The notes beneath the pieces were generated by a model. The model made no database searches, was not told the DNA's origin, and was given only the letters and a program-made list of their open reading frames with translations. The position numbers were made by a program, and so were the translations under genes. A DNA stretch of 44,307 bases, taken from NCBI GenBank assembly GCA_018823025.1, contig JAHJJI010000076.1, forward strand, positions 1-44,307. Direction: 5' to 3'. Numbering within the stretch: the first letter of the stretch is position 1; each line of letters begins with the position of its first letter. This DNA is from Gammaproteobacteria bacterium. GTDB lineage: Bacteria; Pseudomonadota; Gammaproteobacteria; Burkholderiales; Sulfuricellaceae. Shown one piece after another: positions 5,288 to 37,920 of the stretch.

Positions 5288-5731
5288 TTATGGCCACTCA
5301 ATTCGGGCTTCTCCATTATCTTGCCTGATCGTATCTGGCAACCAATCTAAAAGTGCTGAGTCATGGCGACGCAATCCACACTCCCATAAAACAATCACCC
5401 GCCAGCCTGCCCTCACAAGCGAATCAATGTTTTTGCGATCTCGTTCAACATTCTGCTGAAATTTCGCCAGCCAGACATTTTTATTACTAGCCGGAACATA
5501 ACTCAACCGACACCCTTCATGCCTGTGCCAGAAACAACCCTGCACAAAAATCACCACGCGATAACGTGGCAGGCAAAGATCTGGGGAGCCCGGCAAAGAT
5601 TTGTCATGCAGGCGATACCGGAAACCTCTCGCATGGAGAAAACGCCGCACCTTCATTTCAGGCTGCGTATCCTTACCTTTAATCCCAGACATCATGCGGG
5701 ATCGCGTTTGTTTATCGACTATATCCGTCAT
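5288..5731 (-). CDS. vsr: Very short patch repair (Vsr) mismatch endonuclease
   Basis: The protein is 147 residues from the ATG at 5731 (MTDIVDKQTRSRMMSGIKG). The open frame extends 11 codons further, but the family normally starts as chosen and AGGA lies just upstream. Hallmarks are DKQTRSRMM...KDTQPE at the N-terminus, the catalytic-Asp segment LPGSPDLCLPRYRVVIFVQGCFWH, and the zinc-binding His/Cys residues in GCFWHRHEGC. Vsr nicks next to T:G mismatches formed by deamination of 5-methylcytosine. Its start lies 46 bp from the divergent start of the C5 methyltransferase, so the two genes share one control region and act as partners. Confidence 0.93.
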   Translation of the reverse strand: MTDIVDKQTRSRMMSGIKGKDTQPEMKVRRFLHARGFRYRLHDKSLPGSPDLCLPRYRVVIFVQGCFWHRHEGCRLSYVPASNKNVWLAKFQQNVERDRKNIDSLVRAGWRVIVLWECGLRRHDSALLDWLPDTIRQDNGEARIEWP

Positions 5732-5777
5732 TCCTGGTAATCTCTGTCGGTTACCGAACCACATTCATGAAGAAAGT

Positions 5778-7343
5778 ATGCCTCAGTCTACCCCTATTCC
5801 CATAGTTGACCTGTTTGCCGGCCCTGGCGGGCTTGGGGAGGGCTTCTCATCCATTGATAACGGAAAGGCATTTAAGACCATTGTCTCCGCCGAAATGGAA
5901 GCTTCCGCCCATAGCACGCTGAGACTACGCGCGTTTTACAGAATTTTGCGGGGCAAAGGCAAAAATGCTCTGAAGAGCTACTATCGTTATTGCAATGAAG
6001 GAACTTCCGCTCCATATGATGCAGAAACATTATCAGATTGGGAAGAAGCGGGGCGTGAAGCCAGACAAATTACACTCGGGTCAGAAACAGGTAATGACGA
6101 GTTAAACGCCATCCTGGATAAAGCCAATATAGGGCCGACAAATCCATGGGTCCTGATTGGCGGTCCGCCATGCCAGGCCTACTCACTTGTGGGTCGTTCA
6201 CGTAATCTGGGCAAAGCAGACTACGTGCCGGAAAAAGATCACCGCCACTACCTGTATCAGGAATATCTGCGCATTATTCACCGCTACAAACCGGCTGTCT
6301 TTGTCATGGAAAATGTCAAAGGTATTCTTTCTTCCAAAATAAATAAGCAGCATATTTTTCATACGATCCTCCAGGATCTGGTAGATCCTGACAGAGTCTT
6401 TGGTAAAAGTTCCGGGTGTGGATACAGAATTCATGCCCTTACTAATTCCACTGTGTTTGATAGCAATTCAAATGTTGAAGATATCGATGCCCGCGACTTC
6501 CTGGTCCGGACTGAGGAATATGGCATCCCACAAGCGCGCCATCGAGTTATCCTGCTTGGCATCAGAGGCGACATTGATGCAACTCCAGATCAACTTAAGA
6601 AACAAGGCCTTCAATCATTCGACAGTGCGACACATAACCTTCCTCATTTACGCAGCAAACTGACCAAGGAAGCGGATAGCCCTGAAAAATGGGCTGACAC
6701 CGTAAATCATCATCTGATGGAGCTCGCACTCGAATCATCCAGAAATAAGGCCCTGGAAGAATTAAGCACCACACTAAAAAAGTACGAGGGAACGATATCT
6801 TCAAAACTTGGCACCGGCAGCCTCAGAGAGCCAATGAGCTATCGGTTAATGGAGAACAAAACAAAACTTGACGAGTGGTATGAAGACAGTGAACTCAAGG
6901 TCTGGCTAAACCACGAGACTCGTGGACATATGACGAGCGACTTACGTCGGTACGTGTATGCCGCCGCATTCGCAGAGGCATTTGATCACTCACCCAAGGG
7001 GCACGATGAATTTAGCTTGGCGGGACTGCATCCCAATCATGCCAACTGGAAAACAGGAAAATTCTCAGATCGTTTCAGAGTACAACTTAAGCACATACCG
7101 GCAACGACTGTAACCAGCCACATTTCAAAAGATGGGCACTACTTTATCCATCCAGACCCATCGCAGTGCCGCAGCCTGACAGTACGCGAGGCTGCGCGCC
7201 TTCAAACCTTCCCAGATAACTATTTTTTTCAGGGAAACCGTACTCAGCAATTACATCAGGTGGGCAATGCTGTTCCACCACTACTATCAAAATATATCGC
7301 AGCGATAACAGCTAGAATTTTTCAAGGCAGGCATAAATTTTAG
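5778..7343 (+). CDS. DNA (cytosine-5) methyltransferase of the MORC/Z1 restriction-modification set
   Basis: The protein is 521 residues from the ATG at 5778; an upstream extension to 5601 would run through the vsr gene and is not supported. Motif I is VDLFAGPGGLGEGF (10-23). Motif IV is GGPPCQAYS with catalytic Cys132. Motif VI is VMENVKGIL (176-184). Motif VIII is QARHRVILLG. Motifs IX/X are RSLTVREAARLQTFPD and QVGNAVPP near the C-terminus. The segment between VIII and IX is long and should hold the target recognition region; the recognition site cannot be predicted. It protects host DNA and pairs with Vsr. Its restriction partners are probably the leftward operon starting at 19499. Confidence 0.93.
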   Translation: MPQSTPIPIVDLFAGPGGLGEGFSSIDNGKAFKTIVSAEMEASAHSTLRLRAFYRILRGKGKNALKSYYRYCNEGTSAPYDAETLSDWEEAGREARQITLGSETGNDELNAILDKANIGPTNPWVLIGGPPCQAYSLVGRSRNLGKADYVPEKDHRHYLYQEYLRIIHRYKPAVFVMENVKGILSSKINKQHIFHTILQDLVDPDRVFGKSSGCGYRIHALTNSTVFDSNSNVEDIDARDFLVRTEEYGIPQARHRVILLGIRGDIDATPDQLKKQGLQSFDSATHNLPHLRSKLTKEADSPEKWADTVNHHLMELALESSRNKALEELSTTLKKYEGTISSKLGTGSLREPMSYRLMENKTKLDEWYEDSELKVWLNHETRGHMTSDLRRYVYAAAFAEAFDHSPKGHDEFSLAGLHPNHANWKTGKFSDRFRVQLKHIPATTVTSHISKDGHYFIHPDPSQCRSLTVREAARLQTFPDNYFFQGNRTQQLHQVGNAVPPLLSKYIAAITARIFQGRHKF

Positions 7344-7466
7344 GATAAATTGCCCCCCTAATTAACTTGGAGCAGTTCAGACTTGATCTTGCAGGCAGTA
7401 ACTAATGAGTCATCTCTTCGGCCACAGAGGTCATTTGCGACAACCCCTCAGCAGCGCTGGCGCTGG

Positions 7467-10400
7467 CTACCTTGGAGAAAAAGCACGTTCAACTACGATC
7501 TGCTCCGGGCCTACGCTTAAAATGAAGTCGCTTTTATGGGGTTGCTCTCGTAACGACACATCACTGCTGGATTTTGCGAGGCTAAAACCGGCAGCGTCGA
7601 TCCACTCAACCCCTTCGGGGGTCAATAAAGGGACCACATCGTATGTGAGTCGCGCTCCATTGGTTCCTGACAATTCCACGGGAGTTGGAGCATGAATACG
7701 TGCACGCGGTCTTCGGCTCGTCTGCATTCTTTGCCATGCTAAGAACCGCTGAGGGTCGATGTAATCGTCGTCCTCGGGCGACTCGACTTCCGACCTAAGC
7801 CATTCGATGTATCGTGCCCGTAGCATGGTTGCGGCTTCTCGGGTGGCTGCGAGGCCTTGAGCCATTGCAAAGGCAACAAATGGCTCCAAGGTACCCCAGC
7901 GCAATAACTCCTTTGCCCAGAAACCTATCCACGGCAAGCCTGTTGTCTGCTTCCATACAGCCAAGGAAGGGACACTAGATGGATTCCCCGAGCCTGTTGA
8001 CCAAGATTGGGCGGCAACCGCTCCGAGTGCGACGCCCAAGCGGAAGTCGAGGTTGTCGGATACGAACCGTTGCCAAGATCTGAGTTCATCCGGCAGAGGG
8101 CCTGACTCGGTGGAACAATTCATCCACCAAGCGAGAACTTTCGTCCACTCGGATAATAGCGCTTGGTCCGAGACGGTATCTCGTACTCGAAATCCGAAGC
8201 CCCTTTCGTTCAATAGCCGCGAGCCAAGCCTTTCGAATAGTTGTAGACGGACTGAGGATTCATCAACCCCATAACTCGTTGCTGCTACAAGTTCAGCATG
8301 TAACAGGACGGCTGTAGCTTCAAATCTTCGACCGACAACCGGTGTGAATCCATATTGGTAAAGCCGGCGCCGCTCTGCCGTGTCGGGATAGATGCGCTCC
8401 ACGAGAGCGCTTCCTCGCTTGATAAAAGCTCGTTCAAGCCAAGATTCAGTGCGCGATGCTACGGCAGTGAAAGTCTTGCTCCAAACAGAGATCAAAATTG
8501 CCTCGACATCGCTTGCATTAAGGTTTGTCTCAAGGTTCTGCAACTCCTCTACTGCATTGAGCAAAAACGAATCCAGTTCGTCAAGGGTGTCCGCGAGCCT
8601 TGCAGTCGGAATGTTTGCACCGGTGCCAGCCTCGGGCGCGATCGATTGTGGCAAGGCAGTTTCAAGCCAGATCAGAAACGCTTGTGAGTCACGGAGGCCA
8701 AGAACTTCCTCCACTAATCTTTTTAGGGTCGTGAGAAGCAGTCCAAGAGGGCTGGCAACCTCATTTGCAACTCGTTCTTCGGCAAGCAAACGCCCTAGCA
8801 AATTGTTATAGTTCTGTTGCAAATCTGCGATCTGCCGCCTTTGAAGTGTCAACTGGTCACGTGCAGTGGCACTCGGTCGTTGCGGGAGAGCAACCAAAAT
8901 CATCCCTTCCATTCCGTCTGCGGAACCCGGCCGGCCGGCTCGGCCGGCCAGGTTTCGAAACTCCGCAGTCGGCAGATCGCTTAGGACCCGGCGCTGAATG
9001 CTGGGATCAAACGAGCTGCGCTGCAATGAGGCCACAAAGATCAGATCGAATGGCAAATTCACCCCCTCGGTAAGGGTGGCGGTAGCTACGGTGATCGCGC
9101 AGACTTTACGATCGATCAAGCTAGTCATCAGGCGGCGCAACCGTTGCGGCATCTGTCCGTGGCTAGTGGCAATACCACGGTCCAAGAGTGCCACCTCGTG
9201 CGAGTCAGGTCCACAATAATCAACGCACGTAGCTCGTGCCTCGATAAACAAGGCCTGCAGTGCGGAATTATTTTCCATCATGGGTTTTCCTAAGTCTTCC
9301 CACCCGCTCAGTTGTAGTGCTTCCACATACCATCTCATTGTCTGCTCAGGTTGCTGCATCACCGATATCAAAATTCGCCGCTTGCCCTCCACTAGGTGAA
9401 GCGAAGTCCATAAGACGTCCAGTTGATTGAAGTGATTGATACTGTTCCGAATTCCGGCGGGGAGTTGAGGCATCGGCTGGAACCGTAAGCCAATGTAAAC
9501 CGGTTCCTGACGCCCCCTAACGAACAGCGGCTGCCCGTTCAATTGGTCCAATACAATTTGTCCAGGCGCGTTTGGCCTAACCTCCAATGCTCCAACAATC
9601 TGTCTCGTGCTTCGATACCGAAGTCCGATTGGCACTGCGGCCGTCGTCCCTTCAATCCACTCAGCGACTGGTTGCGCAGCACCCCCTGCAACGGCAGTAA
9701 GTGCAATGCGGACGACATCGGGACGACGAGCAAGTAAACGAGACACAAAACCTTCGAGTCGAATCGACCGGCTACTGTGATCTGCAAGAGAATCCATTCC
9801 CCGTTGGCTTGCATCTGCAACCACCTGATGTGCCTCGTCCACGATCAACAGTCGAAGTTTTGTCAGCAAGAGTGGGCCCACGTAGCGCATGAGTGCGTCG
9901 GCTTTTTCCACCGTGGCGATAAGTACGGAGGGCTTATCAGAGTTCAACCAATAGTCAGTAATTCCCCAGTCTGCCCCACCATACAGTCCCGTAATAGTCA
10001 GGTCACGGCCAAGTTCGCTAGTGAGCTTGCTCTCAACTTCTCCAGCTAAGGCTCGTGAGGGCACCAGATACAAAGCAAGCGGCGCAGGCCCATTGGTGAC
10101 TGGCTGCAGCAACTCCTTCAGCAACGCAAAGTTTGCAACCAGCGTCTTACCTGACCCTGTAGGAGTGCATAGCGCAAACGACGAACTCTCAAGGAGTTTC
10201 TGAAGACCGCGTTGCTGCGACGGCCAAAGAGTGCCACGTGAGCGACTGAACTGCTCTCGGGCAAACAACCGGAGCCGGCTGGAAAAAGCTTCGTTAGCGC
10301 TCCCAAGCGCATCGGCCGGGGCATACACACTATTTTCAATGTAGCCTTCAGCGGTTGCAATCAGAAGGTTCAGCAAGGTCGAAAGAGCTTCCGTTCCGGT

Positions 10401-11084
10401 TCTGCTTGCAAGACTTGCCAGCGCCTTAAGTTTTTCCATGGCCTGGAGCAATCGCGGATCATTGCCGCGACGAAGTGCATCGGCGAAAAGACCGAGACAA
10501 CGGACCAGTTCAACAGTTACATGCCAGTCAAATCGGTCTTCTGCTTCTTCGCTGAGTATTTCGACGGTAGCTTCCCTGGAGGTAAGGTTTCGGTTCTCGC
10601 TCCAAAACGTCATCGCACGACCAACAACCGAGTCGAAATCCCCCCCAAGAAACGCTGCCAAAAGACTAACGCCTGGGTGAGATGCTTTCAACTGGCGCAA
10701 CAAGCCTGAGGCCATTGCAGGTAGACCGCCTAGCTGATAAGCACCTGCCGCCAACAGTTCAATTGGTATATCCGCGCTAACGTCATCTGCAGATCGCTTA
10801 AGCCACTCAAGCAATTCACCAGCTCGACGATAGCAATCCAACGCTTGAACAGATTCTCGCCCTTGGATGTGCCTAAATATCCCAGCCACATGCAGCAAGC
10901 GTCGCGCGTCCGAAAGTTGCTGCTGCGATTCGCCTTCTCCCCACCGTATCAATGGAACGTTCCATGTCGTCTGAAGGCAACGTACGAAGAGTCGGGCCTG
11001 GGATGCTGTCAGCTCGTTTTCATTTCCAAGTGCTTGGTGCACCTGTGCAGCGATTTTTAATCGCTCATCGTCAAGTTGTGCCAT
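7467..11084 (-). CDS. Large SF2 DEAH helicase, partner of the HamA-like nuclease (Hachiman-like)
   Basis: The protein is about 1205 residues from the ATG of MAQLDDERLK at 11084; a longer frame reaches 11123. A 300-residue helical N-terminal region precedes the helicase core. The core has Walker A CTPTGSGKTLVA (about 306-317), LIVDEAH (about 413-419), IALTAVAG (motif III), an ATATLTEGVNLP motif V-type segment and RNLAGRAGRPG (motif VI). The pattern is Ski2/Hel308-like. The C-terminal 450 residues are helical and unassigned. Its start overlaps the end of the nuclease gene by 14 bp, which implies coupled translation. A nuclease plus such a helicase is the arrangement of Hachiman (HamA-HamB) and AbpAB phage defence. 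It is transcribed convergently with the methyltransferase. Confidence 0.72.
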   Translation of the reverse strand: MAQLDDERLKIAAQVHQALGNENELTASQARLFVRCLQTTWNVPLIRWGEGESQQQLSDARRLLHVAGIFRHIQGRESVQALDCYRRAGELLEWLKRSADDVSADIPIELLAAGAYQLGGLPAMASGLLRQLKASHPGVSLLAAFLGGDFDSVVGRAMTFWSENRNLTSREATVEILSEEAEDRFDWHVTVELVRCLGLFADALRRGNDPRLLQAMEKLKALASLASRTGTEALSTLLNLLIATAEGYIENSVYAPADALGSANEAFSSRLRLFAREQFSRSRGTLWPSQQRGLQKLLESSSFALCTPTGSGKTLVANFALLKELLQPVTNGPAPLALYLVPSRALAGEVESKLTSELGRDLTITGLYGGADWGITDYWLNSDKPSVLIATVEKADALMRYVGPLLLTKLRLLIVDEAHQVVADASQRGMDSLADHSSRSIRLEGFVSRLLARRPDVVRIALTAVAGGAAQPVAEWIEGTTAAVPIGLRYRSTRQIVGALEVRPNAPGQIVLDQLNGQPLFVRGRQEPVYIGLRFQPMPQLPAGIRNSINHFNQLDVLWTSLHLVEGKRRILISVMQQPEQTMRWYVEALQLSGWEDLGKPMMENNSALQALFIEARATCVDYCGPDSHEVALLDRGIATSHGQMPQRLRRLMTSLIDRKVCAITVATATLTEGVNLPFDLIFVASLQRSSFDPSIQRRVLSDLPTAEFRNLAGRAGRPGSADGMEGMILVALPQRPSATARDQLTLQRRQIADLQQNYNNLLGRLLAEERVANEVASPLGLLLTTLKRLVEEVLGLRDSQAFLIWLETALPQSIAPEAGTGANIPTARLADTLDELDSFLLNAVEELQNLETNLNASDVEAILISVWSKTFTAVASRTESWLERAFIKRGSALVERIYPDTAERRRLYQYGFTPVVGRRFEATAVLLHAELVAATSYGVDESSVRLQLFERLGSRLLNERGFGFRVRDTVSDQALLSEWTKVLAWWMNCSTESGPLPDELRSWQRFVSDNLDFRLGVALGAVAAQSWSTGSGNPSSVPSLAVWKQTTGLPWIGFWAKELLRWGTLEPFVAFAMAQGLAATREAATMLRARYIEWLRSEVESPEDDDYIDPQRFLAWQRMQTSRRPRARIHAPTPVELSGTNGARLTYDVVPLLTPEGVEWIDAAGFSLAKSSSDVSLREQPHKSDFILSVGPEQIVVERAFSPR

Positions 11085-12039
11085 CGGCCCCTCCCGACCA
11101 AAGCGAGTCGTACAGCGACTCAATCAACTCAGCACCGTGATGCAAGAAGACCTCAACGACGTACAATTCGCGGCCAGCGTCGTACTCTTGAGGTCGCACA
11201 CTGCTGGGAACGTTCGTCTCCCCAGATTTGCGCATAGCAGGGTTGTTACCGGCAATAATGACCAAATCTGTTCTAGGGATGGTTTGTTGCGGATGAATAG
11301 CCAAGACTTTGTCGAGCGAGAGAATTGCCTCAGCGTATTGATCGGGTGCGCATTCCATGAGGATGGCTTGGAGCTGGCCTAACCCCTCAGGCACTGGCGG
11401 CGCTTTCCTGAAGCCTGGCAAGATGCCATCGTCTTTTCGAACGTATTGGCCACTTCCCGGTGGCACCTGCTCCCTTGATCCCAGCAAGAGGTCCTCAATC
11501 GTGAGTTTGGTGGCAACCTTGCGATACTTCGCTTCACCGACGATGAAACGTCCTATGCCCCCGATTGAATCGAAGCCTATTCCTATAAAATCGTCACCGA
11601 ACCTCCCCCACAGTTGCCGCTTCTTCGAAGGATCCCGTGCGAGATGAAACAGGTATTTCCCAACATCTGCGTGATAACGAAAGAGAAACACAGGAACTGA
11701 CCATGCGTGCCCATTGGCGGGGATATAGCTTTCGACCACCAAGCCTGCGAGAACCTCACCGAAAAGTCCGTGCCGTGTAGTCGTAGGGAGACTTGACGGA
11801 TATTGTGTTAAAGCAGCGTCTCCGACTGAGTCGGGATGAAGATCCAACCTAGCGTAATTATGGAACACACGTCGCGCATCAGCGTGAGCAGACTCGAAAT
11901 AAGGTCGCAATGAGGCGGCCAGATTCGGCGGACTTGGTTGTTTAGCTTGCAGGAGTAGATGGGTGTACCCAGGTGCCGTGTTGAACCAGGCATCCAGCCA
12001 GAGGTTCAAAACGTCGCAGGGAGGATCACATGTATGCAT
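11071..12039 (-). CDS. HamA-like (DUF1837-type) PD-(D/E)XK nuclease of a Hachiman-like pair
   Basis: The protein is 322 residues. A nuclease pattern is visible: E95 in HGLFGEVLAGLVVE, D149/D150 in GRFGDDFIGIGFD and E169-x-K171 in FIVGEAKYRK. The arrangement GxxGExL ... GDDFIGI ... GEAKY fits the DUF1837/HamA family, whose members cut DNA when released by the helicase partner. The remainder has no signal peptide or membrane segment. No clear ribosome binding site precedes the ATG at 12039, so the true start may be slightly downstream. It is the first gene of a two-gene operon with the helicase. The pair looks richer in GC than the flanking restriction operon by eye. Confidence 0.65.
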   Translation of the reverse strand: MHTCDPPCDVLNLWLDAWFNTAPGYTHLLLQAKQPSPPNLAASLRPYFESAHADARRVFHNYARLDLHPDSVGDAALTQYPSSLPTTTRHGLFGEVLAGLVVESYIPANGHAWSVPVFLFRYHADVGKYLFHLARDPSKKRQLWGRFGDDFIGIGFDSIGGIGRFIVGEAKYRKVATKLTIEDLLLGSREQVPPGSGQYVRKDDGILPGFRKAPPVPEGLGQLQAILMECAPDQYAEAILSLDKVLAIHPQQTIPRTDLVIIAGNNPAMRKSGETNVPSSVRPQEYDAGRELYVVEVFLHHGAELIESLYDSLWSGGADGTT

Positions 12040-12298
12040 TTAGCAGTCAAGTCCATGGTTGCGAGAGTTTGATTTTTCAATACTATTACCGATTTTCGCA
12101 CCTCTCCTAAATAAATCGCTGACGAACTCCTAATGGGGGCAGGTCAGCACCACCAAATGTCATGAGGCCGCTTTGGCCGAGCTCCAGACCGTCCGGGTGT
12201 TGCCGGCTCCTTAATCCGATTTGCGGCCGAAGAAAAAAATCTCCTTCAGATGTTCGTCAGATGACGGCTGCGATAGTACATATGCCGCCTAATGCAGA

Positions 12299-14347
12299 TT
12301 AAGATTTAACCGTATCCTCATACAACGCCCGTATCTCAACTAATCTAATACACTGCTTCTCGTTAGGTAGTTTTTTGGGTATTGCAGATGCAACGTCTAG
12401 GAGCACGAGGTCAGAAGGCTTCATATCTACATTATTATCCGCCCACTTATGGATTTTGGCCCAATAGGCAGCGCCCGCATTGACCACAGCGATTTGGGCT
12501 TCAGCACCGCTGATCATCTTTTGTTCGTGTTTCGCATCATGAACATCTGCCTGCTCTTCATCTCGTGTCCTCAGCAGCTGCATAAATGATTCCGACAATT
12601 TGTAAGGCAGGTTGACAACCTGATCCCAGCAAGGCTTGCGTTTACACCATTCTGTGACGTTGATCACGTTGTTCCTGGCGGCTCCGCTGATTATTTCGTC
12701 CTGAGCCAGATGGCAACATTCCAGGATGGTTTTTGCGAATATCTCCGGCAGAGACTGTTCTCGCCAAACGCGCTGCACATCCAGTTCATACCCCGCCTCA
12801 TGTATCTTGTGCATAAGGAAGGCGAGTCCATAAGTCACGACCTGAGCACGATAACCTTGTGCATACCAGGGGGCTCGTAGCACCAGTAATTCAGCGTTGC
12901 GGAAGATGATGGCCTCAGTAACCGCTCGCCGGAACCAGAGTTCGTTGAAGTCATGTTCGTGATGCTCCCACATGCCACTTACATGATCTGCAAATTTTGC
13001 AAAATTCTTCTGGGCGCCAAGGCTCACGTCGTGAGGCAGCTCCCTGAAGGTCTGTACATACTTAGCCAGATCGGTCTTTGATATCACCTGATCTCGTGGA
13101 TTGCGTGCCTGAAACTCTCTCTTTTTAGCAGGCGAACTATAGGCCGTTGCATTGGCATATTGTCCCTTTGCACGTTCGTAGAACCAGTGCGTGAGTATCG
13201 GTGAACCCTCCTTCGCCGGCGAGGAAAGGCGACGGGATATGTTTTCAATAACCACATGAAACGGATGATTCGAAAAGAAATCAGAATCACTGATTTTATT
13301 CTGACTATTTGCATACCTTGATATTTTTGGCACCAGTTCAGCTGCGATTTCTGGCTTTACTACCGACAGTTTCATCTGAACACTGACCTGATCAATAGAC
13401 ACACCTTTATCTTTTTTGACCACGTTAAAAATAGACGCGGTTGTCTGCCCACCATTTACAATCTGAAGATTTTTCAGTGAACTCACATAGGTGATGCCAC
13501 CTTGTCGTTCCTCAACAATCTCTTCAGCGGTTGCCGAAATTCCGTTGTTGTAAGGAAAGAAGCGTCTGGGCTCTTCCAGAATGGTTTTTCGAATACCCTT
13601 GTTGACCTTGCCCCGTACCTGAAGAAAGGTACGTACATTCTGTTCCAGCAGTCGGCCACCATACTTATCGTAAATTTGCGAAAGCCAGTTTCCTGGTATC
13701 ACGGCCATGAAGCACCGAATGTCACCCTCGCCGTCATCGGCAGGAAGGCAGACCAGCTTGCTGCCGAACATTTCCTCGAAATCGACAGATATCTCTTCTG
13801 GCTCACCGGTTCCGATTGTTCTTGCAAGGCGTTCCAGATCCCATACACGATATGACCATTCTCTCTGCTGCTCTGTTTTTGGAGGTAACTCCTTGACACT
13901 GCTTGTAAGACGTGCGTTGGTAATCAGATAAAAGCGCACTCGTTTGATCTGGTCAGATTGGTCAAGAATTGTCCTGGCCAGCCCGAAAGCTGGATGAGCC
14001 ACCTCCATTTGGTCAACGAAACTATCCAGGCAGGATTTTTCAAAGAATGTTTCTGCTTTTTTGAAAACCTGCACCATTTCAGCTCTGGACATTTTTTCTG
14101 CTACATCACCTCGGCGACAGTCAACCACATACAGTTCCAGCAGCGCCTCATCCCACTTTGTGGCATAGCCATCTACCCGCATCCCGCGGTGTATGAATTT
14201 GCAGGGGACAAACTCATCAATCGAACCAGAATCGATCAGGTATTCAGTAACGACCTCCGCGAATGCTTCGTCAGTAAAGTTTTCAGTGGCATCCGCTCGA
14301 AGGATAATGTCCTGCCGAAGATCTTCGAAGAATGTATCAACATCCAT
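12299..14347 (-). CDS. AIPR-family protein of the MORC/Z1/DUF4420 defence operon
   Basis: The protein is 682 residues from MDVDTFFEDL at 14347; an ATG at 14404 would add 19 residues and overlap more of the upstream gene. The AIPR core is clear: FFPYNNGISATAEEIV, then LKNLQIVNGGQTTASIFN (roughly residues 265-315 and onward), matching the family's NNGI and QIVNGxQT signatures. AIPR proteins are named after abortive-infection phage resistance; their biochemical role is unsettled, but they recur in restriction-modification operons. The gene overlaps DUF4420 by about 10 bp and is the last gene of the leftward operon. The 259 bp between it and the HamA-like gene hold no gene that I can see. Confidence 0.87.
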   Translation of the reverse strand: MDVDTFFEDLRQDIILRADATENFTDEAFAEVVTEYLIDSGSIDEFVPCKFIHRGMRVDGYATKWDEALLELYVVDCRRGDVAEKMSRAEMVQVFKKAETFFEKSCLDSFVDQMEVAHPAFGLARTILDQSDQIKRVRFYLITNARLTSSVKELPPKTEQQREWSYRVWDLERLARTIGTGEPEEISVDFEEMFGSKLVCLPADDGEGDIRCFMAVIPGNWLSQIYDKYGGRLLEQNVRTFLQVRGKVNKGIRKTILEEPRRFFPYNNGISATAEEIVEERQGGITYVSSLKNLQIVNGGQTTASIFNVVKKDKGVSIDQVSVQMKLSVVKPEIAAELVPKISRYANSQNKISDSDFFSNHPFHVVIENISRRLSSPAKEGSPILTHWFYERAKGQYANATAYSSPAKKREFQARNPRDQVISKTDLAKYVQTFRELPHDVSLGAQKNFAKFADHVSGMWEHHEHDFNELWFRRAVTEAIIFRNAELLVLRAPWYAQGYRAQVVTYGLAFLMHKIHEAGYELDVQRVWREQSLPEIFAKTILECCHLAQDEIISGAARNNVINVTEWCKRKPCWDQVVNLPYKLSESFMQLLRTRDEEQADVHDAKHEQKMISGAEAQIAVVNAGAAYWAKIHKWADNNVDMKPSDLVLLDVASAIPKKLPNEKQCIRLVEIRALYEDTVKS

Positions 14348-15302
14348 TTGTAGCTCCCAGGGCAGTCCAGTCTGGTGACGATTTATAGGGTAGACACGCT
14401 GCAAGTTCGATACCGTATTTAACCCGGCACACGCCTGGCATTACTGCGTTTTTAGTGATGCGCGGAAAGTCATCCGCGACAATAAATACTTCCGGATCAG
14501 AAACGGTGAAAAATCTTAGTCCATAGTCGGGATGATCCATATACCCGACTTCCATGAGCAGATCCTCAAACATGTCGGTCATCTCTGGTGAAACGAGCAA
14601 CGTACGCAGTCGATATACCAGGTCAGCAAGTGACTGGGCTCCAGCCGTTTCGGCAGAAGACTCGCCAATTGTGTATGCCACAAGAAACAAGTCACCCGTG
14701 GTGTGCCACAACTGGTCCGCCGAAGAAATAAGCAGTACCGGGGAGGAGCCTGCAGTGTGGCTTTTGATCTCGAAAAGTGTAGTGCCCACTGCAAAATCTT
14801 GCGGATCACCTGCCGGTCCGCGCCAGAAGGCAATAGCAGACGGACCAAATCGCTCGATTAATTCATGTTCGAGAAACTTAAGCTCGCAAAAGAGACCGCG
14901 AATCTGCTCATCACTCAATAAATGATTGATGCCCCTGCCAAGGAAACGTTGCCAGCGTTCGAGTTGCTCGATTATGCGGTTTAGTACCTCACTGCCAGGT
15001 TGCACTCCGAGAGTTCTGTCTATGAGACTCCAGCACAACGTCGAAAAAATTTCGAGGTCACTATGTTGGGTAAGCCTGAGAATCAGCCTGTCTGAATTGA
15101 GCTCAATAGTTATTCCCCGCAAACTTGGGAGCTTGTGGTTGGTTGCCAGATTCTCGGCCTGGTATATGAGGAGCCTGTGCCCCTGCACATCTCGCCCCCA
15201 GAAAAAATCGTGGGGATGAGAAGCATCGACCCGTCTGGCATGAAGCGTCCCCTGAGGTGTATCAGGGGCAATATTGCTCCATGGATCAGTTCTGGTCATC
15301 AT
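14337..15302 (-). CDS. DUF4420 PD-(D/E)XK motif protein (restriction endonuclease-like)
   Basis: The protein is about 321 residues from the paired ATGs at 15302/15299; the open frame to 15488 runs through the Z1 gene and would be too long for the family. The nuclease motif is QDFAVGTTLFEIKSHTAG with D169 and E178-x-K180, preceded by a helix RGLFCELKFLEHEL that supplies a Glu (about 140). These are the residues expected for a PD-(D/E)XK enzyme. The length matches the family. Start and stop overlap neighbours on both sides (Z1 by about 17 bp, AIPR by about 10 bp), showing tight coupling. Likely the cutting subunit of the system; this role is inference from motif and context. Confidence 0.87.
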   Translation of the reverse strand: MMTRTDPWSNIAPDTPQGTLHARRVDASHPHDFFWGRDVQGHRLLIYQAENLATNHKLPSLRGITIELNSDRLILRLTQHSDLEIFSTLCWSLIDRTLGVQPGSEVLNRIIEQLERWQRFLGRGINHLLSDEQIRGLFCELKFLEHELIERFGPSAIAFWRGPAGDPQDFAVGTTLFEIKSHTAGSSPVLLISSADQLWHTTGDLFLVAYTIGESSAETAGAQSLADLVYRLRTLLVSPEMTDMFEDLLMEVGYMDHPDYGLRFFTVSDPEVFIVADDFPRITKNAVMPGVCRVKYGIELAACLPYKSSPDWTALGATNGC

Positions 15303-17982
15303 TGTCGTCTTCCGCATCATCACTTTGATCTTCGAATTGTTCTTTCCACCAGACGGTATTAACCAGATATTCCACCAGTTTCCCGCGACCCTTTCCCTTT
15401 TCACCAGGAAAGCTGATTCCCCATGCGCATGCCTTGTCTGCCAGTCGGGTAGCACTATCAGCAGTATCGAGGCCAAGACTGAGTACATGGATCATCAGCA
15501 AAGGTTTCGAACGCACAATCCTGTAAGCTATATCAGGTATATTCTTGGCTTCGCCTTGGGATTCCTGCGCCTTCGCGATTTCAGGTTCAGAAAGCCCGGC
15601 CTTCTCAGCACCTCTCGATGCAACACGCGATTTTGTGCCGCTAACAACGTAGCAGTCCCCCTTATCGATGCAACCTCTTCGCTGCTGCCGAATTTTGATC
15701 GGTCCAACGTCCGTTGTTTCACCCTCACTCAGGCTATAGAAACAGACATCCCACAGACCAAGATGATCTGAATCATTCTTTATGAAGCTGATTACCGGGT
15801 GCTGTTTAGCGATATCAAGTTCACTGTCGTAAACCTCGAATCGGGATAAAAATGAACAGACCAGATCTGAGCCGACATCTGTCCATATGTATCCCAGCCC
15901 CTTTGCACTGTTCTTACTGTAGTTGCCCTCAAGCTCCTCGGCGAGACTGACTACGGCTTTAAAGTTGTTCTCCAACGATTTTTTCGAAGACTTGATGCGT
16001 ACCGTTTCTACCAGTCGTCCATTGAGTGTCACTGAATGAGTTACTTTTTTACCCGTTCGCATCTTGTTGCGTGCAGTAACAATAAGGGAATCCGGGTGTG
16101 TCCGGACTTTCAAACCAAAGTCCTCAGGACATCTGTTCAGTTGCTCCATCAGTCGTAGCTCGACCCTCAACTCGTCAATGGCAGAAGAAATGTGGGAATA
16201 CCAGCTTGCAGCCTCATCGGTCATGTAAAGATTGCAAAGGTCCAGATAGCCATCTCGATAACCAAACCAGCGTCCCATTTGCAGCAAGGTGTCGTACATG
16301 ATCGAATTGCGAATGAAATAGCTGACAGTCAGGCCCTCGAGCGTAAAGCCCCGAGACAGACTTAACCCACCTACAGCAATCACATGCAGGCCACTTTCCT
16401 TGTAATTCTTGTAATCGAGCCGGTCTGGTGACTTGTTGTTGATTGTTTTCACAACGACCGAGCCAACCGACTGAATCAACCTGCCCTTTACCTGTTCCCA
16501 TGTCTCACCATTTACGGGGGTAATAGTGCTCCATGTGTCTTTTAAAGAGCTCATACCTGGATCTTTTAGTGCCTCACTGTCGGGTAATGCGGCATGAAGC
16601 TTCACCGAGTTCAGCAGTTCTTCGACATAGTGACTCAGTAATGCCGTAACCTGTTTTTGCACACTGTTAAAGCGAGAGACGTTCACTAGCATCGATGAAT
16701 GGTCTTGGCCGCGGCCACGCTGAATCCGTACCGCTCTTGCCAGGACAAATCGGCGAACAGCCTCCATAAGACTCTGTGGAAGGGTATTTACCTGGTGAAT
16801 GATTTTATGTTTTTCAGGGAATGCAGAAAGATGATCAGACACCGAAATGACGAAGTTCGTGAGATCTCCATCATCACCAAATATTCTTGATGCACTAACG
16901 TAGTTTTCCGGCGCTTCCAGCGAAACAATAAAATGTTTCGGGAACAGATCGTCCTCGATCATGTCGTGCTCGGAGTCCGGGTCTATGAATATATTTGCGA
17001 AAGGTGTTGCCGTGTAGCCAACATAACTTGTCTGCTCAAACAGGGCGAGAAGCTGCCTTATCAACCTGTTGATGCGTGTTGGATCGTTTTCGCCAGTTGC
17101 CGTATTGATTGACGCATTATCAGCCTCGTCGTCGATCAGCAGCATGGGAGTAGCAAGAATTTTCCCGCCTTTTGTTTCGTTAAGACTGGTTAGCCATTCA
17201 ATCAAATTATTCAAAACTGAGGTTTGTTTTTTAATTACGAGGACGATGGGAACATTCACTGAACCCAGCATGAAGTTGCTTGCCCTCTTGGAACTTTTTC
17301 GGAAATCATGTTCTCTGGAGGTAAGACTGTATGGAGTCCTCGCTTTGTCTGAAATCCGACCAACCCCAGTTTTTGCTTCTTTAAATGGCAGATTTTTATC
17401 CAGCTTGTCTGTGTCGACACCAATAAACGCTTCCTCCAGGCGCTGTTGTGTCTGGCTCCGAAGATTGTTGTGCATACCGGCAAGCAGAATAATGATCTTA
17501 TAACCATAATCTGCGCCCTTGCTGATTACACCACTGTAGTTTGCCGTCTTGCCGGATTGAACATGACCCACTACCAATCCACGGCGCTTCCACTCACCCC
17601 CTTTCTGAGGGTTCTCCAGGAGCCCCACAATTTTGTCCGTATCTCGACCGACCGTCCCCACCACTTCCTTTGAAAAACCGACCTGCAGAAGATGCTGACG
17701 ATAACGATTCCAGTAGAAAAGTTCCTCATTAGCTCGACGCTCTGTTATCCATTCTTCAAACGGTAATTTGACGACTGCTGCATCCGGCATCGTGAGGTCT
17801 AGCTTTGATTCTAGCGATTTGGATATCTGTTCTATGAATTGCTCTTTGTCTTCAATCTGAGGAGCGTCTGTGCCAAGCATTTCAAGCATCTGCCGGACAA
17901 CTGGGCGGATTTTTTCTGGGGGTACTGAAGTCATTCCGTTCAAAACGGCTTTTACCTGGTTTTCGAACTCCTGTGGATTCAA
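15286..17982 (-). CDS. Z1-domain ATPase/helicase-like protein of the defence operon
   Basis: The protein is 898 residues. The start is a TTG at 17982 overlapping the stop of the MORC gene (AATTGA), with GGGG upstream. Walker A is GLVVGHVQSGKTANYSG (135-151), with the Gln before Ser typical of the Z1 group. Walker B is MLLIDDEADNASIN (280-293). An arginine-finger-like motif VI segment is LQMGRWFGYRDGYLDL, near residue 600. The N-terminal 130 residues are helical and the C-terminus is strongly acidic (EDQSDDAEDDNDDQN). Z1 proteins are SF2-related ATPases found almost exclusively with MORC, DUF4420 and AIPR genes. It probably couples ATP use to recognition or movement on unmodified DNA. Confidence 0.9.
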   Translation of the reverse strand: MNPQEFENQVKAVLNGMTSVPPEKIRPVVRQMLEMLGTDAPQIEDKEQFIEQISKSLESKLDLTMPDAAVVKLPFEEWITERRANEELFYWNRYRQHLLQVGFSKEVVGTVGRDTDKIVGLLENPQKGGEWKRRGLVVGHVQSGKTANYSGVISKGADYGYKIIILLAGMHNNLRSQTQQRLEEAFIGVDTDKLDKNLPFKEAKTGVGRISDKARTPYSLTSREHDFRKSSKRASNFMLGSVNVPIVLVIKKQTSVLNNLIEWLTSLNETKGGKILATPMLLIDDEADNASINTATGENDPTRINRLIRQLLALFEQTSYVGYTATPFANIFIDPDSEHDMIEDDLFPKHFIVSLEAPENYVSASRIFGDDGDLTNFVISVSDHLSAFPEKHKIIHQVNTLPQSLMEAVRRFVLARAVRIQRGRGQDHSSMLVNVSRFNSVQKQVTALLSHYVEELLNSVKLHAALPDSEALKDPGMSSLKDTWSTITPVNGETWEQVKGRLIQSVGSVVVKTINNKSPDRLDYKNYKESGLHVIAVGGLSLSRGFTLEGLTVSYFIRNSIMYDTLLQMGRWFGYRDGYLDLCNLYMTDEAASWYSHISSAIDELRVELRLMEQLNRCPEDFGLKVRTHPDSLIVTARNKMRTGKKVTHSVTLNGRLVETVRIKSSKKSLENNFKAVVSLAEELEGNYSKNSAKGLGYIWTDVGSDLVCSFLSRFEVYDSELDIAKQHPVISFIKNDSDHLGLWDVCFYSLSEGETTDVGPIKIRQQRRGCIDKGDCYVVSGTKSRVASRGAEKAGLSEPEIAKAQESQGEAKNIPDIAYRIVRSKPLLMIHVLSLGLDTADSATRLADKACAWGISFPGEKGKGRGKLVEYLVNTVWWKEQFEDQSDDAEDDNDDQN

Positions 17983-19499
17983 TTGCCTACCCCTTTGCTG
18001 CCGTGGCGATCAAGATACTCGACAACGAACTTTGGATTGGATGAAAATGGCTCAATGGAGCGCATCATTTCTGCCACATACTCAGGATTCGCACAAACAT
18101 CATCTCCAAACAGGAGGCTGGCTAATTTTTCCAGATCATCCATGGTTTCATTCTTGCAATCAGTTTCCTTGGGTCTTGAAGCCATATCGTTGAACAACAT
18201 CGCAAATGGGAGCGATTTCCCGACAACAGCCAGAATTCCATCAAATCTCGTTCTCATCGCAGACGGAAGGTCTGCTCGAAACTCTTCAAAGAGCTTGTGC
18301 TTGCTGTTCGGTTCGTAACTCACACGATCATTATGGTGAAGGCGTTGCCAGATAGATTCCCCAGGCATACTGATAGCGGCATTGCCACGATGCTTATATG
18401 GCCGCTTGGCAGAATCACGGATGCGCTCCAGTATCGAACGAAGACGTTTCTTGACTGCTTCTGGCGGCCGGGCTCGCGATTTTCTGACATCGATGGTCCA
18501 GAGGTGATCCAGGGTATTTGGTATATCTACCTGTACTCTGGCCAGTTTCGTCATCTCGTCTTGCCGCGCCATACGAAACCATGTGCCGTGGATAATTAGC
18601 CGCCGATTACGATAGATATAAAATCCCTGCCCACGAAGATAGCCTTCATTCCCTCCAAGCCGCTCATATTCTTCCGCACTGACCCTGCTGTGGTGAGGAA
18701 GAATGTAAGGCCTGAAAGTTACTGTGTCATTTTCAATATCCAGCGGCTCCTCGCCCAGATGCATCGTAGCGGGGTGCTTGGCGTTGAAAGGGTCGAAAGC
18801 CTCGATTGGATTATTGTTGACCGCAATTACTATCTTTGGATGCTTAGGTTCACCGGTGATAAATCTATGAAAGACAAGAGACACATGTTCACATATCGAA
18901 GCGACCCTTTCGTTCATGACTTGATGCACTCTGCCTGTGTCATTCCCGAGGTCAAGCCGATCCAGACATTGCCAAAGAACCATTGTCCCTTTTGTTCCTA
19001 GCATGGACAAACCAGGAAGGATTCCGAGCTCTTCGACGCTCGGATTTTTTAACACCCATTTATCCCTTGCTCTTACTAAATCAAGATCCCATTGCCTTGC
19101 CGATTGCCCTGTATCTGACATAGAAACCACAGTAACTTTTCGGCACTGTGAAAAAGATGCCGTTTTAAGACCTAACCCAAAACGCCCAAGATCATCTGCA
19201 TGTCTTAAAGCAAGCGGATCTCTTCCCCCTGGACGCATCGCTTCGACAAGTTCTGATTCAGACATTCCGTGACCATTATCGAAAATAGCTAGCCATGGCG
19301 AGTTCTCACCCTCCCAGCCAAATCGGATATCTATTCGTGTTGCTAAAGCAGAAATTGAGTTGTCAATGACATCTGCAACTGCAGATTCAAGTGAATAGCC
19401 AATATCCCTGAGGGCCTCGACCATACTCGAGGCTTTAGGCTCAACGATATCAAAGCCGTCTTCAATGGAGGGGGAAATCATTAAATCTAACAAGTCCAC
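17979..19499 (-). CDS. MORC-type GHKL ATPase, first gene of the defence operon
   Basis: The protein is 506 residues. The GHKL fold motifs are LESAVADVIDNSISA (N box, 37-51), IFDNGHGMSESEL (G1, 72-84) and GRFGLGLKTASFSQ (G2, 105-118). At the position of the usual catalytic Glu of the N box there is Asp43, which I recall as common in this prokaryotic sub-family. The C-terminal half should hold the S5-like transducer and a variable region. The start is a GTG at 19499; an ATG 18 bp downstream is equally possible, and neither has a strong ribosome binding site. The stop overlaps the Z1 start. MORC/MutL-like ATPases clamp DNA on ATP binding, so a sensor or clamp role is plausible. Confidence 0.9.
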   Translation of the reverse strand: MDLLDLMISPSIEDGFDIVEPKASSMVEALRDIGYSLESAVADVIDNSISALATRIDIRFGWEGENSPWLAIFDNGHGMSESELVEAMRPGGRDPLALRHADDLGRFGLGLKTASFSQCRKVTVVSMSDTGQSARQWDLDLVRARDKWVLKNPSVEELGILPGLSMLGTKGTMVLWQCLDRLDLGNDTGRVHQVMNERVASICEHVSLVFHRFITGEPKHPKIVIAVNNNPIEAFDPFNAKHPATMHLGEEPLDIENDTVTFRPYILPHHSRVSAEEYERLGGNEGYLRGQGFYIYRNRRLIIHGTWFRMARQDEMTKLARVQVDIPNTLDHLWTIDVRKSRARPPEAVKKRLRSILERIRDSAKRPYKHRGNAAISMPGESIWQRLHHNDRVSYEPNSKHKLFEEFRADLPSAMRTRFDGILAVVGKSLPFAMLFNDMASRPKETDCKNETMDDLEKLASLLFGDDVCANPEYVAEMMRSIEPFSSNPKFVVEYLDRHGSKGVGN

Positions 19500-19873: not shown

Positions 19874-20131
19874 ATGATCACTTGCAAGCTTTCCACTCTG
19901 CTAGGCGCACGACGCATCAAGGTTTCGGATGTCTGCCGCGCCACCGGCGTTGCGCGCGCGACGATCGACCGCTATTACAACGACCGCATTAAAAGCTATG
20001 ACCGTGAGGTGTTGTACAAGCTCTGCCGATTTTTGAAGGTCAAACCCGGTGACCTCATTGAACTGGTCGATCAGGGTGATTTATTCGATACCCAGGACAC
20101 ACCCTCATCTTCCCGACAGGAGACGCCATGA
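19874..20131 (+). CDS. XRE/Cro-type helix-turn-helix regulator
   Basis: This 85-residue protein is a single DNA-binding domain: LSTLLGARRIKVSDVCRATGVARATIDRYYNDRIKSYDREVLYKLCRFLKVKPGDLIELV, with the recognition helix in ARATIDRYY. The pattern of a short XRE protein ending in xVxPGDLxE is common. There is no obvious ribosome binding site before the ATG, so initiation may be weak or leaderless. The stop overlaps the next gene by 4 bp (ATGA). It could repress itself through the GATAAATT repeats upstream. It lies divergent from the restriction operon and could in principle be a controller protein for it, but no evidence shows this. Confidence 0.8.
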   Translation: MITCKLSTLLGARRIKVSDVCRATGVARATIDRYYNDRIKSYDREVLYKLCRFLKVKPGDLIELVDQGDLFDTQDTPSSSRQETP

Positions 20132-20352
20132 CCGAACGTGAATTGAAACTTTTGCTGGAGGCGCACGCCATCAAACAGGTGCAGGTGCATTACGCAGTGA
20201 TGTCGCAGGGCTACATGATTGTGGCTGATGGAAAACCGCTGGAAACCGGCAAGAAAGAAACGCGGGAATTCAAGACTCTGGACGCGGCAGCCAAGTTGTT
20301 GTTCAAGCTGGGCGTTGCCGATTTTGGGGTTAGATTGCGGACTTCATCTTGA
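20128..20352 (+). CDS. Small hypothetical protein coupled to the XRE regulator
   Basis: The 74-residue protein MTERELKLLLEAHAIKQVQVH... continues with alternating strands and ends with EFKTLDAAAKLLFKLGVADFGVRL. Similar short proteins, with a segment reading 'F+.LDAAA+.L..LGI..F.V', occur next to plasmid partition or transfer genes, some called ParC-like. I remember this similarity but cannot verify it. The start overlaps the stop of the XRE gene by 4 bp, so the two form an operon. No transmembrane or metal-binding motif is present. Confidence 0.6.
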   Translation: MTERELKLLLEAHAIKQVQVHYAVMSQGYMIVADGKPLETGKKETREFKTLDAAAKLLFKLGVADFGVRLRTSS

Positions 20353-20439: not shown

Positions 20440-21081
20440 TCAGGAGTCGTTGGCCACAGAGAAATCGGGTGTGATGTCAAAGCCGTCGGCCCACATAGGG
20501 ATTTCATTGCCCGACTTAACTAGCTTCCCCTCGGCGTACACAGCAAAAGCGTCATAGCAGGGTTTTTCTGGGTTGTCGCTTTCGGTGCTGTTATCCACCA
20601 GCAATGCAAGCGACGCCACCTTCACCCCCTCCTGGGCATTTTTAAGCACACGCGGGTACCGGGAAAAAATGCGATCCTTCGGAACATTGTGACCGCCGCG
20701 CTGCTGTCTAGCTGTCACACGCTCAAGAGATTTCTCCGGTGACGCCAAACCAACAAAAAGCAATACAACGAAGTAGCCGCGCCGCCGCGCCTCTTCTATA
20801 AATCGTAGTTTTTCCCGGTATGGGTCCGAAAATACTGTCTCAAAACTGAAGCTAGCGCCACCCTCAAGTAGAAGTTTACGCTCCTGCTCGGCCTCTTCCA
20901 TAGCAATGCGGGAAAAACCGTCCCTCGTCAGTGGTTCTCCCTCCCACTCTAGACGAATTTCATTTTCAATCGCATCAGGATCAATGTGGCGCTCAGTGAG
21001 CGGACCAAAACTAGATTGGAGATAGACCCGGTAGCAAGTGGACTTTCCTGCCCCATTGTGACCAGCAATAACCATCAGCAA
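20440..21081 (-). CDS. Zeta-toxin-like P-loop kinase
   Basis: The protein is 213 residues. The N-terminus is MLMVIAGHNGAGKSTCYR with a Walker A GHNGAGKS at about 7-14. It is followed by ERHIDPDAIENEIR and a Lys/Arg-rich lid KDRIFSRYPRVLKNA, a layout shared by zeta/PezT-type kinases that phosphorylate UDP-N-acetylglucosamine or nucleotides. The start is uncertain: TTG at 21081 or ATG at 21075, and the frame stays open upstream to a TAA near 21165 with no ATG, GTG or TTG, so a CTG start coupled to the previous gene is possible. It is the last gene of a three-gene leftward operon. Toxicity is inferred from the family only. Confidence 0.72.
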   Translation of the reverse strand: MLMVIAGHNGAGKSTCYRVYLQSSFGPLTERHIDPDAIENEIRLEWEGEPLTRDGFSRIAMEEAEQERKLLLEGGASFSFETVFSDPYREKLRFIEEARRRGYFVVLLFVGLASPEKSLERVTARQQRGGHNVPKDRIFSRYPRVLKNAQEGVKVASLALLVDNSTESDNPEKPCYDAFAVYAEGKLVKSGNEIPMWADGFDITPDFSVANDS

Positions 21082-21152
21082 CGGTGTCTGGTCACCGGCT
21101 TGCTCGAAATCCGTCTCAAAACGGGCAAAGAAAGTCTCAAACAGGCTCAGGA

Positions 21153-21836
21153 TCAGCTCTTCTTACGGGCGCCTTGATTCGTGGCCATGGCCGCGAACGC
21201 GCCCTTGAGACCACGAATGGCCTCCATGGCTTTTTCATGTTCCTGAAGACGGAACGCGGAACTCATGGCAATCAGGCGATCGTGCGCCTGAAGGAGTTGA
21301 GTCCGATTGATGACGTCGGCCGACAGCAGTTCGAGAAGCGTTCTGCCTGAATCTGGTAACATCGCTCCAAGGGAGCCGACAGGCAGTGGCCCGAGTTCTT
21401 CCCACTTCTTCGCCAGTGCGTAGAGTTGCTTCATTCGTACTTGGTTGCCTTGGCGGACGAGTCCCATGTCTTGGAGGCTGCTCCACAGATAGATAGTCGG
21501 TCGCCGAACACTAAACACCTGCGCGGCTTCAGAGATATTGAGTCCAAAGATCCGACGTACAAAAGCAACAATATCCGACGGCCGCAGCGGAGCTTGTTCT
21601 ACACTTTGGAACGGCAACGCACGTTCGAGCTTGGTGGCCATTACGACAGAGGCGCTAGTCGATGTATTGTGCAAGCCGGGAATGTTTAGCTTGAGAATAG
21701 CAAAAGCGTAGGTTTGTGCGTCCGGAGCGGAAATGGACGAGCCGGTGTTGTAGGCTCCAAATGCCGGACGGGCAGGGTAGCTAAGCTGCTGTTCGCGCAT
21801 TGCCAGGACCGCATTTTGTCTAGATAAGTGCATCAT
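21153..21836 (-). CDS. Helix-turn-helix protein between TIGR04255 and the zeta-like kinase
   Basis: This 227-residue protein has an N-terminal region of strands (about 1-85) and a central DNA-binding-like segment SDIVAFVRRIFGLNISEAAQVFSVRRPTIYLWSS (about 89-122) with the turn at NISEAAQVF. A helical C-terminal half follows, ending in ALKGAFAAM-type sequence and a basic tail GARKKS. It starts 2 bp after the TIGR04255 stop, so the genes are co-translated. It is a candidate repressor or antitoxin for the kinase downstream. I do not recognise the family; the HTH assignment is by eye. Confidence 0.6.
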   Translation of the reverse strand: MMHLSRQNAVLAMREQQLSYPARPAFGAYNTGSSISAPDAQTYAFAILKLNIPGLHNTSTSASVVMATKLERALPFQSVEQAPLRPSDIVAFVRRIFGLNISEAAQVFSVRRPTIYLWSSLQDMGLVRQGNQVRMKQLYALAKKWEELGPLPVGSLGAMLPDSGRTLLELLSADVINRTQLLQAHDRLIAMSSAFRLQEHEKAMEAIRGLKGAFAAMATNQGARKKS

Positions 21837-21838
21837 CT

Positions 21839-22666: not shown

Positions 22667-22927
22667 AGCTATCTCCGCGAGAATGTTATTGGGTATCAAT
22701 ATTGTTGACGTCACAAACGATGCAATCATACACGATATATGACACACAAAAAGCGCCTTTGTGCAGTATATTACACTTTATTTTACACGTTAGCGTATCG
22801 CCTAAATGCGGCGAGCTCTACGAAATCTGAGCGGTCGACTAAGAGGCGGCTCAAGCAGACGACTGAACATCCGGTTTCTCCCGGATTCCCGACCATCGAC
22901 AGTAAAGAGGGGATCTAACTTCATCCC
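22667..22927. other. Spacer between two leftward operons
   Basis: Apart from the promoter of the TIGR04255 operon, the only structure is ATCCGG-tttctc-CCGGAT near 22868-22886, just downstream of the leftward operon that ends at 22928. It lacks a T-tract in either direction and is a weak terminator candidate. Confidence 0.35.
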
Positions 22928-37872: not shown

Positions 37873-37890
37873 TGTGTACTTTTGCTCACG

Positions 37891-37920
37891 ATAACTGCGG
37901 CCTTTGGGTCGCTGTTATTT
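37891..37920 (+). terminator. Terminator after the integrase gene
   Basis: ATAACTGCG and CGCTGTTAT form a stem with one mismatch and a GGGT-containing loop, followed by TTTTGTGGG. The sequence is nearly the same as the hairpin at 40291-40321. Confidence 0.7.

Follow-up and report, generated by a model that had tools for sequence, protein, structure and literature searches.

C5-cytosine methyltransferases mark self DNA, and Vsr mends deaminated 5-methylcytosine. The prediction of MORC systems in prokaryotes dates from 2008; in the available part of that paper, MORC is predicted from gene context to loop DNA (Iyer et al., 2008; PMC2292703). A similar set turned up once more in 2022 (Miller et al., 2022; PMC9523054). 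In the part of the latter report at hand, 'type II' consists of Z1, a PD-(D/E)XK protein, a cytosine methyltransferase and AIPR, with an associated MORC-family protein and a regulator, and MzaA of the MZA system is a sigma factor (PMC9523054). A Z1-domain ATPase drives cleavage in CglI/NgoAVII, according to the portion of the study used here (PMC4267653). In Hachiman of E. coli, HamB patrols and HamA is released at damaged DNA or 3' single strands, as far as the accessible text describes it (PMC12278908).

The window analysed here is one entire contig of 44,307 bp from a 3.35 Mb draft genome, and it is called plasmid-like because Rep3-type, ParA, ParB, UmuC-like and integrase genes are present on it. 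Between 5288 and 19499, it carries MORC, Z1, DUF4420, AIPR, HamA-like and HamB-like genes in leftward order, a methylase gene running in the opposite direction and a Vsr gene divergent from the methylase. The locus is probably a complete Mza-like MORC-type restriction set with a self-contained Hachiman-like pair inserted at the convergent seam of AIPR and methylase.

A sequence-only reading had proposed a leftward MORC-Z1-DUF4420-AIPR operon with a C5 methylase and Vsr, and a nuclease-helicase pair of another type between AIPR and methylase; all eight genes are confirmed in place with Pfam, PADLOC and NCBIfam, and the pair proves to be HamA/HamB-like. On the minus strand, the gene for the MORC-family GHKL ATPase (MzaB-like, 17979..19499; Pfam HATPase_c_3, 2.1e-30; PADLOC MzaB, 3.5e-83) is followed by those for the Z1 domain ATPase (MzaC-like, 15286..17982; Pfam Z1, 1.4e-74; PADLOC MzaC, 1.1e-146), the DUF4420 PD-(D/E)XK nuclease (MzaD-like, 14337..15317; Pfam DUF4420, 4e-64; PADLOC MzaD, 1.8e-22) and the AIPR protein (MzaE-like, 12299..14347; Pfam AIPR, 9.2e-97, and AIPR_N; PADLOC MzaE, 1.1e-77). 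The starts of AIPR at 14347, in an ORF that opens at 14404, and of DUF4420 at 15317, in an ORF that opens at 15488, are inferred. The small overlaps between the core genes stand as described: MORC and Z1 share 4 bases if the Z1 start is the TTG at 17982, and the other two overlaps hang on the inferred starts. Further along the same strand lie the gene for the HamA-like nuclease, which has a D150...G168-E-A-K171 motif (11071..12039; PADLOC HamA1, 1e-4; PDB HamA 8vx9_A, E 0.052), and that for the HamB-like SF2 helicase (7467..11084, in an ORF that opens at 11123; PADLOC HamB1, 1.2e-51, residues 89-1098; PDB HamB 8vx9_B, 4.3e-17; Pfam DEAD helicase, 4.3e-20). The C5-cytosine DNA methyltransferase gene (5778..7343, plus strand; Pfam DNA_methylase, 1.5e-44) has the motifs GGPPCQAYS, ENVKG and QVGNAVPP in its translation; its ORF opens at 5601, and relatives fit a methionine start at 5778. 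The Vsr-type mismatch endonuclease gene (5288..5764, minus strand; Pfam Vsr, 2.7e-31) reaches 147.5 bits with NCBIfam TIGR00632, above the cut-off of 97.85.

The window core has homologues of MzaB, MzaC, MzaD and MzaE, arranged as in MZA (MzaABCDE). The NCBIfam Mza equivalog models give 341.7 bits for MzaB (cut-off 850), 573.8 for MzaC (1500), 97.7 for MzaD (420) and 356.9 for MzaE (1050), and because all four scores are below the cut-offs, the core is named 'Mza-like' and not Mza proper. The MzaA sigma factor has no match among those window ORFs that were scanned, and the window set, unlike MZA, carries a methylase and Vsr.

The catalytic residues of the methylase, HamA-like, DUF4420, Z1 and MORC proteins seem preserved and look intact. 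The Walker-type residues of Z1 are invariant in 13 alignment rows, and D174, E183 and K185 of DUF4420, numbered on its 326-residue form, in 47 rows; the GHKL boxes of MORC are intact by eye, and its GFYIYRNRRLI fits by eye the S5 motif GhXhhpXXRhl given in the available text of PMC2292703. In the HamA-like protein, D150, E169, A170 and K171 are invariant in 16 rows and G168 is kept in at least 90%. The predicted DUF4420 model (pLDDT 93.6) retrieves nothing with Foldseek at E <= 0.001, and VIA-align pairs it with NhoI (Z 7.2, 123 aligned, 5.3 A), DpnI (6.2, 135, 4.8 A) and HincII (5.5, 124, 3.9 A), in a range, Z 5.5-7.2, where chance matches are common. A clear relative of its N-terminal domain is absent among the matches listed, which is uninformative. 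In profile searches of PDB sequences, AIPR has no match at E <= 0.1 and DUF4420 none at E <= 1. The HamA-like protein matches no Pfam family, and 8vx9_A is its sole PDB match at E <= 1; the D-GEXK active site is present in it, and the PADLOC and PDB matches of the HamB helicase homologue are clear. Judged by these matches, the pair is a divergent Hachiman-like unit, clear for HamB and drawn for HamA from the D-GEXK motif and weak scores. A fold model of the HamA-like protein (3 alignment rows, pLDDT 39) was set aside.

Several other features lie on the same contig. At 19874-20352, two small overlapping genes divergent from MORC encode a Cro/C1-type HTH protein (PF13443, 2.5e-19) and a 74-aa protein with no Pfam match, and neither was found in the other loci compared (tblastn E <= 0.01). 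A leftward cluster at 20440-25211 comprises a zeta-toxin-like kinase, four proteins with no Pfam match and a TPR protein, and the product of 26358-27827 has a PD-(D/E)XK part at its N-terminus (PDDEXK_1, with Cas4 weakly matched) and an RNase_H_2 domain at its C-terminus. A group II intron match of Rfam at gathering score (40 bits) lies at 32432-32506, and the nearby ORFs that were scanned include no reverse transcriptase. The repeat at 37870-37950 behind the integrase was considered as an attC site and rejected; by eye it is a terminator-like hairpin, and four further contigs of this genome carry it at 81-86% similarity.

The comparison shows that, at the level of gene neighbourhoods, the six genes belong together in relatives and the pair does not, and that an orthologous set free of the pair exists. 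A scan with the Z1 alignment, one genome per species, gave 564 relatives, and among the best 80 of the 564 (tblastn E <= 1e-3; many of the 80 loci are cut by contig ends) MORC is present in 78/80, DUF4420 and AIPR each in 75/80, the C5 methylase in 73/80 and Vsr in 64/80; 53/80 loci have a methylase of the window's kind at 250 bits or more. Strong MORC and AIPR matches occur together in 73/80, and in the 45 of these with at least 5 kb on either side the methylase is found in 44 and Vsr in 40. Co-occurrence of the six genes, as counted in these loci, far exceeds chance. Two neighbours of Mza-like sets elsewhere may be mentioned. Between the methylase match and Vsr of one set lie an AAA gene and a DUF2357/PDDEXK_7 gene, a McrBC-like reading (L102, 3731-7888). 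Near another (L034, 2290-5564), a C5 methylase match has two neighbouring genes, one matching a response regulator weakly (0.0045, below cut-off) and one matching HATPase twice; this couple resembles the gene pair of PMC8011034, as described in the excerpt at hand.

The sequence-only reading had asked whether the methylase normally comes straight after AIPR, and as a rule it does not: in the 51 of the 80 loci in which the position of both is clear, it precedes MORC in 30 and follows AIPR in 21, and the window's convergent layout of AIPR and methylase is, in this sample, a common minority form. A methylase at E <= 1e-40 is present in 10 of 369 genomes of the class, and in 6 of the 10 (the window's own included) it is near a Z1 gene, at 1.9-3.7 kb in the five other genomes and 7.9 kb in the window; in two of the remainder no core is found nearby (G040, and G128, whose methylase is partial), and in two (G076, G219) the contig ends too soon. 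Nor does the methylase cluster with unrelated restriction-modification systems, since the three plasmid records with a full-length relative all have a methylase beside a Mza-like set; on the Shinella plasmid, the best methylase match is a second, lone cassette and not the one in the set. A plasmid search with the 15.7 kb region gave no DNA match. If the methylase and Vsr were an unrelated pair that lies here by chance, a cassette free of the core, as in G040 and as the second Shinella copy, and histories loosely coupled to the core would be natural; the frequencies of both genes in the best 80 of the 564 core loci and the presence of the methylase at the same seam, the AIPR end, in G525, G464, G394, G218, Shinella and others speak against it, and this reading, already disfavoured, is most improbable.

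By pairwise distances, the four core genes share one history, with which methylase and Vsr are loosely coupled. The distances come from 55 of 100 related loci, those in which all six genes are full length and the methylase has 33% or more identity to that of the window. Across these loci, which include near-copies (L098 = L156) and whose pairs are not independent data points, correlations are 0.68-0.78 between core genes, 0.18-0.26 between methylase and core, 0.25-0.36 between Vsr and core and 0.31 between methylase and Vsr; in the 45 loci left when Z1 identities >75% are dropped, the values are 0.63-0.76, 0.19-0.28, 0.23-0.34 and 0.34, respectively. The weak tie of the methylase does not come from its variable region alone, because its catalytic parts also correlate with the core at 0.13-0.28; three 150-column blocks of AIPR correlate with the other core genes at 0.55-0.69. 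The methylases of the window and G525 are 40% identical in the variable region, and 66% and 84% in the catalytic parts.

In a core tree (FastTree, 81 rows, L156 left out), the place and direction of the methylase change at least 17 times, and its family changes about 7 times, with families other than the window's lumped. With Vsr divergent from the methylase, the cassette precedes MORC in 17 loci and follows AIPR, convergent, in 16. The second divergent cassette of the Shinella plasmid (L029, 36448-38437) is about 20 kb from the set's own, with no core gene matched beside it, and the methylase and Vsr of G040 adjoin proton pyrophosphatase and phosphofructokinase genes. Since it is loosely tied to the core and changes end, orientation and methylase family, the methylase/Vsr half behaves as an exchangeable cassette, and these comparisons suggest that it can be swapped independently of the attacking half and moves separately from the core. 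At one locus, a partial second methylase N-terminus adjoins the complete methylase (L074, 16526-18609), perhaps a trace of cassette exchange.

In a classical restriction-modification system, DUF4420 or another core protein would read the fixed site of the methylase. The gene content is that of such a system, a target can be common to methylases of different families, and the R-proteins of CglI/NgoAVII, with their Z1 partner, read a fixed site in the available account (PMC4267653). DUF4420 is also the fastest-changing core gene between the window and G525, and its partial correlation with the methylase is slightly positive, 0.07, a weak value that 38 of 500 permutations reach. Given the rest, the partial correlations of the methylase in the 55 loci are 0.08 with MORC, 0.07 with DUF4420, 0.02 with Z1, -0.05 with AIPR and 0.24 with Vsr, and 38, 38, 174, 393 and 0 permutations, respectively, are as high; with the core values between 0.08 and -0.05, no core gene clearly tracks the methylase. 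Against a fixed site, the core stays similar across methylase families: L063 and L049, a clear case of exchange, have identities of 0.78 in Z1 and 0.72 in DUF4420 and of 0.26 in the methylase, and the nearest methylase of L063 (58%) is that of L026, which is not among its two nearest cores. The classical reading is somewhat less likely than not. The exchange pattern, with correlations drawn from six-gene loci alone, points to a restriction core that has no hard-wired target, which it favours and does not prove. An extended form of this idea, which seems rather unlikely as a whole, is that the core takes its specificity from the attached C5-methylase/Vsr cassette, or reads its mark, with families exchangeable at either core end, and that the seam takes cargo, here a damage-sensing HamAB that may be triggered by the core's cuts.

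The Hachiman-like pair, by comparison, is a stranger to the set. The related loci number 100 (99 distinct), namely 80 Z1 relatives, 9 on plasmids, 10 of the same order and 1 further one of the class; many end at contig ends, and within the stretches covered the pair is inside the set in none of the 100. Retention of the helicase pair in homologous loci is not seen: HamA plus HamB occurs in 0/80 loci of the species scan, 0/10 of the same order and 0/1 further locus of the class, in a genome with the window's layout. Of the plasmid loci, found by Z1 or HamB, 1/9 has the pair, outside the set. This is p42f of Rhizobium etli CFN42 (L006, 15042-21735), a locus itself fetched by its HamB. HamAB of the same type lies there some 2 kb beyond the AIPR end of a different Mza-like set, with AIPR between it and the methylase; the distance leaves room for a loose association of pair and core. 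The Z1 proteins of R. etli and S. meliloti GR4 are 98% identical, and near the GR4 set no pair is seen in the stretch covered.

The best comparison is G525, a genome of the same order: on a contig of 3.36 Mb it has the orthologous set, with gene order and orientations as in the window and with no pair. Amino-acid identities to the window are 79-80% for MORC, 82-83% for Z1, 73-76% for DUF4420, 86-87% for AIPR and 63-65% for the methylase, and DNA identity is 77% over 7.2 kb, ending with AIPR (window 12308). A single group with support 100 unites the window with G525, G464 and Hydrogenophaga in the core tree, all with AIPR and methylase convergent. The interval from methylase stop to AIPR stop is 4,955 bp in the window (7344..12298) and 256 bp in G525, -25 bp in G464 and 44 bp in Hydrogenophaga. 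Among 25 convergent loci, the window included, it is -50 to 256 bp in 22, and 810 and 899 bp in two (L072, L074), each with one extra gene: a DUF2971 protein in L072, and in L074 one that by eye looks like an HNH nuclease and has no Pfam match. Because the three nearest core relatives have no pair, its acquisition probably took place on the branch that leads to the window alone. For the most part, the idea of a Hachiman-like unit dropped between the two halves is upheld: the pair has the look of a passenger, and the comparison with the insert-free orthologue indicates that the set can do without it. As for an insertion footprint, the pair is flanked by neither direct nor inverted repeats, and beyond the AIPR tail there is no significant sequence match to G525 at the junction. 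A fragment at the G525 seam, GHKL-ATPase-like (E 0.005 to a plasmid gene), is too weak to count as the scar of an earlier insert. GC3 sets the pair weakly apart (0.526 vs 0.483, p 0.0055), and DUF4420 equals the pair in this respect; composition is too weak as proof of origin. An assembly chimera of two plasmid pieces might be thought of in a draft genome of 145 contigs; the frames are intact and both junctions intergenic, and such an error is scarcely credible here.

Elsewhere, the pair usually occurs apart from such a set. HamB covers at least 80% of its length in 22 plasmid records, and the best matches listed are alphaproteobacterial plasmids, up to 57%, which speaks for a provenance other than that of the set. 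Sixteen HamB loci were compared, from 14 of the 22 plasmid records and 2 viral contigs, several with short or cut flanks, and 15 of the 16 have no gene of the six-gene set; a HamA-alignment search of viral contigs gave only the same two again. Beyond the window's own genome, HamB of this type is found in none of the 369 class genomes (E <= 1e-30) or the 250 order genomes (E <= 1e-60). These loci bear on a reading in which the pair has become a recruited part, the core's cuts or single strands triggering HamB and freeing HamA, with escalation to DNA clearance or cell death. It would agree with the activation of E. coli HamAB by DNA damage in the available text (PMC12278908), with the recruitment of effector pairs known in defence systems from the excerpt of PMC12799240, and with the position of the pair, which lies 259 bp past AIPR, transcribed the same way as the core, at a seam that holds other genes in 2 of the 24 other convergent loci; the R. 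etli neighbourhood is similar. The absence of the pair from every other set examined and from the vicinity of the S. meliloti GR4 set, and its occurrence apart from the set in nearly all HamB-fetched loci, make recruitment unlikely.

In the preferred reading, a complete set with an inserted, self-contained pair, the methylase would mark host DNA by 5-methylcytosine, and Vsr would repair the T:G mismatches that arise from its deamination. The Z1 motor and MORC clamp may load and move on unmarked DNA, with DUF4420 as the putative cutter and AIPR as a further candidate effector. At the seam where the pair sits, every gene is unbroken and both halves keep their promoter side. By analogy with E. 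coli, HamB of the pair would patrol DNA and free HamA on damaged DNA or 3' single strands; because the pair would work alone, set and pair may be independent layers carried by a single plasmid, one reading marks and the other damage.

That the set is known from comparative genomics holds, inasmuch as it is Mza-like and fits 'type II' of Miller et al. (2022), and names for it exist already. Likened by gene content, the window matches type II in Z1, DUF4420, cytosine methylase and AIPR with MORC; the available text ties DNA repair endonucleases to type I and, for type II, mentions neither Vsr nor an inserted pair (PMC9523054). The MORC-linked restriction-modification systems of Iyer et al. (2008) share MORC, an SF2 helicase, a restriction-fold nuclease, a cytosine methylase, Vsr and the S5 motif, and a HamAB-like pair is not described in the part at hand (PMC2292703). 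CglI/NgoAVII likewise combines a Z1-domain ATPase with a nuclease and a methylase, but its site is read by a PLD-B3 nuclease, and AIPR and DUF4420 are absent from the accessible description (PMC4267653). With Hachiman, the pair shares a two-gene locus of nuclease and Ski2-like helicase (excerpt of PMC12278908) and the D-GEXK motif (excerpt of PMC12799240), whereas the window's HamA is too divergent for Pfam, the HamB ORF has 1,218 codons and the pair lies inside another set. No paper on a composite of the set and a nested pair was found by title or abstract start, in a literature search that largely lacked subscription papers. Collectively, the six-gene set is, by its gene content, a further member of an already known putative type, and the nested arrangement of the pair within it and the exchangeable methylase/Vsr cassette are new.
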